Under the pieces are notes generated by a model that had not been told where the DNA came from, made no database searches, and saw only the letters and a program-made list of their open reading frames with translations. Below, in pieces: positions 62,895 to 63,372 of a DNA stretch of 64,000 nucleotides. The DNA comes from Protonemura montana (taxonomy: Eukaryota; Arthropoda; Insecta; Plecoptera; Nemouridae), in assembly GCA_947568835.1 (NCBI GenBank), contig OX387603.1, positions 22,902,651 through 22,966,650 of the forward strand, read 5' to 3'. The number at the start of each line of letters is the position of its first letter. The stretch's first letter is position 1. A program made the position numbers and the translations under genes.

Positions 62895-62905
62895 TCACAT
62901 CTCCT
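62895..62905 (+). repeat. Left target-site duplication of the 5S-SINE
   Basis: TCACATCTCCT, repeated exactly at 63362-63372 on the other side of the element. Confidence 0.92.
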
Positions 62906-63010
62906 ACCGAACGGTTTGGCGTGTTGGAAACACCGGTTCTCGTTAGATCACCGAAGTTAAGCAACACTGCGCTGAGTCAGGTATTAAATGGGTGACCATC
63001 ATACACATGA
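62906..63010 (+). pseudogene. 5S rRNA-like head of the SINE
   Basis: The sequence aligns by eye with about the first 100 bases of animal 5S rRNA, with scattered substitutions. The terminal stem cannot form because its 3' partner is absent. It serves as the SINE's internal promoter rather than as rRNA. Confidence 0.85.
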
Positions 63011-63361
63011 CCAGTTCTGTTCAGGAGAGAGGTTGGAGGGATGAAAGTTAGTACAACAACTTCATTCGCCTTGCTTATCAACCTCTCGACAGCATGGATT
63101 TGTGAAGGAATCCTGCTGTTCGAGTTGTACCGTCCTTCGGAAGGGACGTGAAGCCGGTGGTCCCCTTGGTGCTCTTCGACAGGAGTAGGCTACGTGCCGT
63201 CACCGGGTTTCCCCTCCTCCCTTCTAGGCTAGGTTAGGTTCATCATCATCCTCATCATCATCCACTCATTCACCGACGCCATTAGACCAGTGCCGCAGGG
63301 CCAGTTGTCAAAACAGTGCGTCGTTAAACACCACAAATAATAATAATAATAATAATAATAA
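62906..63361 (+). mobile_element. 5S rRNA-derived SINE (SINE3-like), apparently complete
   Basis: The element is about 456 bp. Its head (62906-63010) is clearly related to 5S rRNA: GGAAACACCGGTTCTCGTTA and GATCACCGAAGTTAAGCAAC, then ATGGGTGACC, in the correct order and spacing. The internal pol III promoter is recognisable: box A near 62953-62968 and box C near 62981-62997. A unique body follows, including CTTCGGAAGGGACGTGAAGC, similar to cores I know from several SINEs. The 3' end has a TCGTTAAACACCAC motif and (AAT)9, as expected if a partner LINE recognises the tail. The exact 11-bp duplication on both sides proves retrotransposition and suggests it is not very old. It is not a functional 5S gene, because the 3' part of the rRNA is missing. 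The partner LINE is not visible in the window. Confidence 0.9.
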
Positions 63362-63362
63362 T
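63336..63362 (+). repeat. (AAT)9 tail of the SINE
   Basis: Nine perfect AAT units at the 3' end of the 5S-SINE. Confidence 0.95.
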
Positions 63363-63372
63363 CACATCTCCT
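63362..63372 (+). repeat. Right target-site duplication of the 5S-SINE
   Basis: TCACATCTCCT, identical to 62895-62905. Confidence 0.92.

Follow-up and report, generated by a model that had tools for sequence, protein, structure and literature searches.

The locus considered here raises the question of whether a 456-bp element headed by a 5S rRNA-like sequence is a recently inserted member of a mobile family, and of what has become of the promoter-bearing part of its head elsewhere in the genome. The window, that is, the whole 64-kb stretch of DNA analysed (G000:C2:22902651-22966650), belongs to an assembly of 258.5 Mb in 34 contigs, which was searched for further copies. The window copy is best explained as a full-length SINE of 5S rRNA origin (SINE3 class) that was inserted recently, and in many other copies the head holds a 91-bp unit repeated 2 to ~22 times. 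We place a probability of about 0.85 on the whole account developed below, which comprises a recent SINE3 insertion, retroposed multi-unit copies, and arrays grown in place, mostly near contig ends.

The window copy and its 5S ancestry

The element and its parts are laid out as follows, with positions counted along the window.

62895-62905, no strand: left target-site duplication, TCACATCTCCT, an exact match with 63362-63372
62906-63361, forward strand: complete SINE, element positions 1-456 (456 bp), with ends common to copies elsewhere
62906-63026, forward strand: 5S rRNA-derived head (Rfam RF00001, 60.2 bits, model 1-120)
62906-62955, forward strand: H5, the stretch of the head that lies 5' of the tandem unit, found once before the units where present
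62956-63046, forward strand: U, the 91-bp module, single in the window copy and tandem in other copies
63047-63235, forward strand: B, the body, with no Rfam family at its cut-off and no tRNA
63236-63334, forward strand: T, the 3' region, ending in TCGTTAAACACCAC; the 27-mer of tail and AAT start has 635 exact copies
63335-63361, forward strand: (AAT)n tail, as read from the sequence
63362-63372, no strand: right target-site duplication, TCACATCTCCT, an exact match with 62895-62905

The original prediction had read this stretch as a complete SINE with a 5S-derived head, and both the Rfam score and the exact 11-bp duplications bear it out. The 5S_rRNA model matches 62906-63026 with 60.2 bits over model positions 1-120 (cut-off 38, E 3.9e-10) and is the sole gathering-level Rfam match in the 64-kb window; 11 further matches to other families, obtained at a loose threshold, all fall far under their cut-offs and were rejected. 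No tRNA was detected by ARAGORN in the window. U takes in the internal control region of the 5S sequence together with 20 nt of the body, and box A, IE and box C, going by 5S coordinates, would be placed within it; GATCACCGAAGTTAAGC and TGGGTGACC are aligned to the 5S model in the Rfam alignment. No stop-to-stop frame of at least 150 aa overlaps the element, and no run of four T occurs within it, so that it has no plain internal Pol III terminator. The fold of the whole element was discarded as a signal, with 25/100 shuffles equal or better (z -0.70).

The sequence TCACATCTCCT has two forward occurrences in the window, both at the edges of the element, and the chance agreement of two given 11-mers is ~3e-7; since the T at its start could equally belong to the AAT tail, 10 bases are left without that ambiguity. 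The window holds this one copy of the SINE (62906-63361).

The SINE head and a Drosophila 5S sequence are equal at 73/117 aligned bases (62%). Genuine 5S genes are separate from the SINE and are represented by 40 scored matches at 87-88% to the same Drosophila sequence, even though an insect-type exact 5S pattern, which was too strict, gave 0 matches. Judging by this identity, the host is probably an arthropod. A regular array of 5S genes is present at G000:C11:72-105741; for much of its length, every ~9.51 kb contains three 5S matches, two of them forward and one in reverse, and the array looks as if it were linked to another repeated gene cluster.

Family size and dispersal

The element is far from being single-copy. 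The 27-mer TCGTTAAACACCACAAATAATAATAAT has 635 exact matches in the assembly, and, with up to 3 mismatches, a 56-base head pattern is found 2,308 times and a 54-base body pattern 3,075 times, with 0 matches for the reversed control of each; these head, body and tail patterns miss more diverged copies. The DNA search that had been suggested for counting copies scored 40 near-full places; besides the window copy itself, these comprise 39 further ones with an identity of 97-99%.

A scripted test detected a target-site duplication in 41/64 complete copies, one of which (L052) sits in a local repeat, against 32/1,263 mismatched pairs, where the 5' and 3' flanks were taken from different copies; with a stricter score, the figures are 32/64 and 1/1,263. 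By the scripted test, the duplication is absent in 23/64 complete copies. Before these counts, L009-L016, L026, L039, L063-L068 and L110, which are covered by other loci, L119-L121, which are contig ends, and L136 were dropped; a count of 47/114 still contains L110, so that one insertion is counted twice in it.

Copies that shared flanks beyond the element would point away from independent insertion, and the original prediction had named this as a check to which it should be put. Comparison of 114 flanks from complete copies gave 12 alike pairs, of which nine are between loci probably holding further nearby SINE copies, one is L032/L040, and two are within-locus; in no case do two 5' flanks resemble each other as far as the edge of the element. 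Nested copies also exist, as in L007 (the L026 locus), which lies inside another copy with a 12-bp duplication. Because of the duplications, the nested copies and the 5' flanks that are not alike up to the boundary, these data support a retroposed family with recent activity, in agreement with the recent mobility first proposed for the window copy, which is itself a young-looking single-head form.

Some copies are heavily truncated. In L111:1509-1552 and L112, the inserted piece is only some tens of bases from the 3' end of the SINE, an extreme 5' truncation, with an exact duplication around L111 and one with one mismatch around L112. By eye, L019, L069, L070, L085 and L086 begin at element positions ~44-47, a possible preferred 5' truncation point, with a clear duplication among these five copies only in L019.

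A tandem module within the head

In some copies the head appears in two pieces, and in L039 a tandem repeat finder reports a 91-bp repeat (period 91). The unit, U, corresponds to element positions 51-141, and its junction lies at the word AAGTTA, which is found at both places. Genome-wide, the U-U junction, taken as an exact 22-mer, is found 16,001 times, so that the counted junctions alone, at 91 bp each, amount to ~1.5 Mb; exact 22-mers across the U-B junction occur 4,459 + 231 = 4,690 times. Perfect two-unit stretches number 247.

When the loci are annotated by segment (H5, U, B and T), copies with the structure H5-(U)n-B-T are seen, with n = 1 to 9. In the 20 loci baited by the junction (L069-L088), H5 precedes the array in 10/20, as it also does in L117, L118 and L123, at least the start of the body follows it in 20/20, and H5 and the tail are both present in 9/20. 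Of the arrays read whole, L068 is the longest, at 22 unit rows (the final one incomplete), and has neither H5 nor body at its ends. In 73/76 neighbouring pairs of the junctions listed on C1, the spacing is a multiple of 91 to within 3 bases, and the first 2.3 Mb of this contig holds 24 junction clusters, of which the densest packs 32 exact junctions into 5.6 kb. The same 91-bp unit is carried by nine multi-unit copies that were met without this bait (L017, L040, L041, L089, L090, L091, L115, L116 and the neighbour array within L057). In the 5'-truncated copy L021, the duplication is another one, and short.

Conservation is no higher in the control region of U than in the remainder of the unit (4.5% vs 2.9% variant letters; ~3.0%, by hand, for the control region without two subfamily-marking positions), so that the arrays give no sign of a kept promoter function, and selection on the promoter part of U is not supported.

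At L073:1-450, a 15-bp minisatellite derived from unit positions 38-58 adjoins a two-unit head; it is a second level of repeat birth from module U.

Position along the contigs and subfamilies

The arrays are concentrated near contig ends. On C1-C3, 40/44 array loci lie within 3 Mb of an end, compared to 18/61 exact heads of any unit number (p 1.5e-10) and to 20% expected, where array loci are perfect two-unit stretches, which favour homogeneous arrays, and positions are those of the first 100 places listed. Compared to exact bodies on C1-C2, the proportions are 27/31 and 42/91 (p 5e-5). In a sample of 20 U-B junctions, 17 are single-unit copies above 3 Mb, some of them with small gaps or inserts, and three are multi-unit copies below 1.5 Mb; this sample represents part of one contig, taken in roughly even steps through 100 listed places, all on C1 up to 29.0 Mb, with neighbours used in place of those already fetched. 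No telomere repeat is present at the three contig ends read, and we therefore speak of arrays near contig ends and not of subtelomeric arrays proper. Other tandem repeats, of ~97 and ~30 bases, were seen at L119 (C1:1-500) and at L121 (the end of C2), respectively.

Multi-unit and single-unit copies also differ in their letters. At a first variable body position, T is found in 18/20 multi-unit vs 13/52 single-unit copies, and at a second one in 19/20 vs 22/52, the single-unit sample having been drawn largely by exact tail or BLAST score, which favours young copies. In the unit consensus, multi-unit copies have TTGGATGGGTGACC where single copies have TTGAATGGGTGACC.

An alternative to special growth near the ends is that multi-unit copies were inserted everywhere alike and persisted near contig ends, where less DNA would be lost. 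Exact bodies are themselves enriched there (the 42/91 within 3 Mb stand against 19% expected), and multi-unit copies carry the letters of a seemingly older branch, both of which this explanation would accommodate. It is nevertheless rather unlikely, given that the arrays are more enriched near the ends than either exact heads or exact bodies, and that the U-B sample from C1 separates multi-unit copies below 1.5 Mb from single-unit copies above 3 Mb.

Retroposition of multi-unit copies and growth in place

Complete multi-unit copies are flanked by a target-site duplication in 6/16 cases (L041, L074, L078, L081, L084 and L123) and lack it in 10/16; the 7/17 returned by the script for n of at least 2 was corrected, since L102 is a single unit split by BLAST. 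The duplication is exact in L041 (2 units, 11 bases), L078 (5 units, 10 bases) and L123 (7 units, 13 bases), and has one mismatch in L084 (2 units), L074 (6 units) and L081 (6 units). In L123, seven nearly perfect units stand between both SINE ends within an exact duplication.

Duplications around copies that run from H5 to the tail would also fit a quite different history, in which all arrays grew in place from single-unit insertions, via slippage or unequal exchange at AAGTTA, and multi-unit RNAs were never inserted. That growth in place does happen is shown by the private higher-order patterns, the closer kinship within arrays and the clustering near contig ends, and independent events at the same microhomology could produce the same junction each time. 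What speaks against this as the whole explanation is, first, L075, which starts at unit position 51 and continues with seven whole units, body and tail, all flanked by 14 exact bases. A cut single-unit copy would be without unit positions 1-50 and could not grow whole units, so that, in the template of L075, the cut unit must have been followed by one or more whole units. Among the loci read, this is the sole mid-unit start with a clear duplication, other mid-unit starts (e.g., L077, L082 and L122) being without a duplication or cut by the end of the locus. Second, the nine copies met without the bait share the same 91-bp unit, and the short duplication in L021 is another one. We consider growth in place alone to be improbable; the insertion of at least some multi-unit copies is shown.

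Retroposition of the longer heads is combined here with local change. Variants private to an array recur in order, as in units 4/8 and 5/9 of L087, units 4/6 of L075, and in L082. Across 18 arrays of at least three units, units differ by 4.5% within an array vs 5.5% between arrays, a difference reached in 0/1,000 label shuffles; L068 was retained in the comparison of unit divergence, despite the dropping of covered loci elsewhere. Arrays have also changed locally. Variant sets such as 20A 36A 80A recur in L063, L072 and L080, and would fit a shared multi-unit source or an exchange between loci.

Homogenisation of U relative to the body is weakly supported. In arrays of at least three units, units are 3.2% and bodies 4.9% diverged (18 copies), at a p of 0.05 only and with the bias of three arrays having been picked for their perfect units; in single copies, the values are 4.1% and 4.2% (56 copies).

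The remaining explanation, that the 91-bp repeat is an old independent satellite from which the SINE took its head, could point to the U-U junctions outnumbering the SINE (U-B) junctions and to L068 being without any SINE end, and is very hard to credit, since the 5S homology spans element positions 1-121 and U only 51-141, with its last 20 nt being SINE body, which makes U a piece of the SINE, and since the junction-baited loci have H5 before the array in 10/20 and at least the body start behind it in 20/20.

Proposed mechanism and order of events

The preferred reading, a SINE3 family that both retroposes and forms arrays, can be set out as a course of events. RNA polymerase III would transcribe the SINE from its internal 5S-type promoter, and no TTTT lies inside the element, as would be expected if the transcript were read as far as the tail. 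A partner LINE recognising this tail would then carry out target-primed reverse transcription, copying the RNA at the AAT tail into a nick and giving rise to the flanking duplication that is seen. In an older branch, recombination between the AAGTTA words, 91 bp apart, would have duplicated U, as the junction suggests, and elements with at least two U would themselves have been transcribed and inserted elsewhere; the duplications around repeat-headed copies, plus the cut of L075 in mid-unit before whole units, show such insertion for some of them. Mostly near contig ends, arrays would have grown in place by unequal exchange or slippage and become partly homogenised, a step to which their private patterns and their position point. 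The outcome would be satellite arrays of SINE origin, the longest of which, among the loci read, has ~22 units.

The likely order is, then, an old single-head family, a duplication in one lineage, the spread of multi-unit copies and growth near the ends; single-head copies, the window copy likely among them, would have multiplied again in a later burst.

LINE reverse transcriptases are scored at 150 places in the genome, with several different scores, and RT-bearing copies with long frames, of up to 1,081 residues, are common, for which reason LINE activity looks recent. The SINE tail has no match in the 3' windows of 11 RT-bearing copies, which probably lie beyond many true 3' ends, save for a SINE copy in one of them, and a 201-bp piece nearer the end of one RT-bearing copy was matched only in an ATT repeat. 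A tail pattern excluding the normal SINE context was tried as another way to the partner LINE: of its 15 matches, the eight fetched (L109-L116) include no LINE, with L109 and L110 (the latter being locus L034) showing short tail pieces, L111 and L112 very short truncated insertions, and L113-L116 variants of the SINE.

A farther-reaching idea, possible and put forward here tentatively, is that a Pol III promoter module has become an open-ended tandem repeat carried through retroposition, and that the element would be both a retroposon and a seed of satellites near chromosome ends. If true, the repeated 5S-type promoters could yield long or staggered Pol III transcripts. The array L122 starts at unit position 42 and the single-unit copy L108 at 43, with other starts elsewhere; a 5S-type start lying 50 nt ahead of the next unit would be expected at positions 42-43, which is only a lead. 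The starts seen are too few to support internal Pol III starts inside arrays.

Comparison with known systems

According to the available sections of PMC3272025, PMC8010984 and PMC10886601, SINE3 elements occur in fish, mammals, a beetle and Lepidoptera; insect families include HaSE3 (Helicoverpa), PxSE4/PxSE5 (Plutella) and SINE3-1_TC (Tribolium). That such elements are rarer than tRNA-derived SINEs, as the original prediction had it, agrees with the parts available of PMC8010984 and PMC3272025. The present family has the features by which SINE3 elements are recognised: a 5S-homologous head with an internal control region, dispersal with duplications, no coding capacity and no internal terminator. 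It shares with the insect SINE3 elements a 5S-derived head carrying box A, IE and box C, a body that is unrelated, a short repeat at the 3' end, and target-site duplications. The heads of PxSE4/5 are ~63% identical to Bombyx 5S in the section of PMC8010984 concerned, and the window SINE head is 62% identical to the Drosophila 5S. The tail is (AAT)n here, whereas it is (TGA)n or (ATGT)n in PxSE4/5, as far as these are described in the available text, the comparison being one of descriptions and not of sequences. Tandem head units, present here, go without mention in the available sections of the insect accounts (PMC8010984, PMC3272025, PMC10886601). A text search of the literature gave no paper with the SINE sequence beyond two chance matches to a 12-letter word, consensus sequences being mostly published in figures; the family may, as first suggested, be undescribed.

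As for SINE-derived satellites, the arrays described here consist of a piece of a SINE, occupy many loci, are long and prefer contig ends. Among the closest known cases is sSat3 of squamates, whose unit, in the available sections of PMC10702118, joins part of a SINE head with a promoter box to part of the body (67 nt in snakes), as here. These sections describe loci that number in the thousands in most snakes, subvariants that alternate within a locus, and a subtelomeric preference. The squamate satellites derive from Squam SINEs, with a head called tRNA-related, whereas the present head is 5S-derived (PMC10702118, same sections). In squamates, one longer terminal unit is the rule and both SINE ends occur only in minor variants, as stated there (PMC10702118), whereas H5 and the tail are both present in 9/20 of our junction-baited loci. 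The insertion of repeat-headed copies with target duplications, which is found here, is not reported in those sections of PMC10702118, which do note dimeric SINEs such as Alu, and SINEs in which a short internal stretch is duplicated. Parts of tRNA-related SINEs have given rise to Xenopus satellite 1 and Hydromantes Hy/Pol III, listed in a table of PMC9659126, where, in the part available, satellites derived from transposable elements are reviewed in general.

Repeated promoter-bearing SINE parts are what the present family has in common with dimeric SINEs, Xenopus satellite 1 and Hy/Pol III. These known cases are tRNA- or 7SL-related or fixed dimers, whereas here the module is 5S-derived and open-ended in its number of units. 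A more distant likeness is that to SVA, a composite retroposon whose internal tandem repeat is variable; the SVA repeat is not known to come from a Pol III promoter, and no sequence relation is claimed.

In the open-licence literature searched, no report of a 5S-derived SINE giving rise to a satellite was found. SINE-derived satellites are already known, and the present case differs as a 5S-derived, open-ended promoter repeat that is retroposed at least sometimes. As to how satellites are born, this genome offers stages side by side: a single-head SINE, a SINE of two units within an exact duplication, and, near contig ends, arrays of up to ~22 units with higher-order patterns of their own. A 5S-derived SINE of a probable arthropod thereby repeats what was described for other SINEs of reptiles, which would make the conversion of a SINE promoter module into a satellite near chromosome ends a general route.
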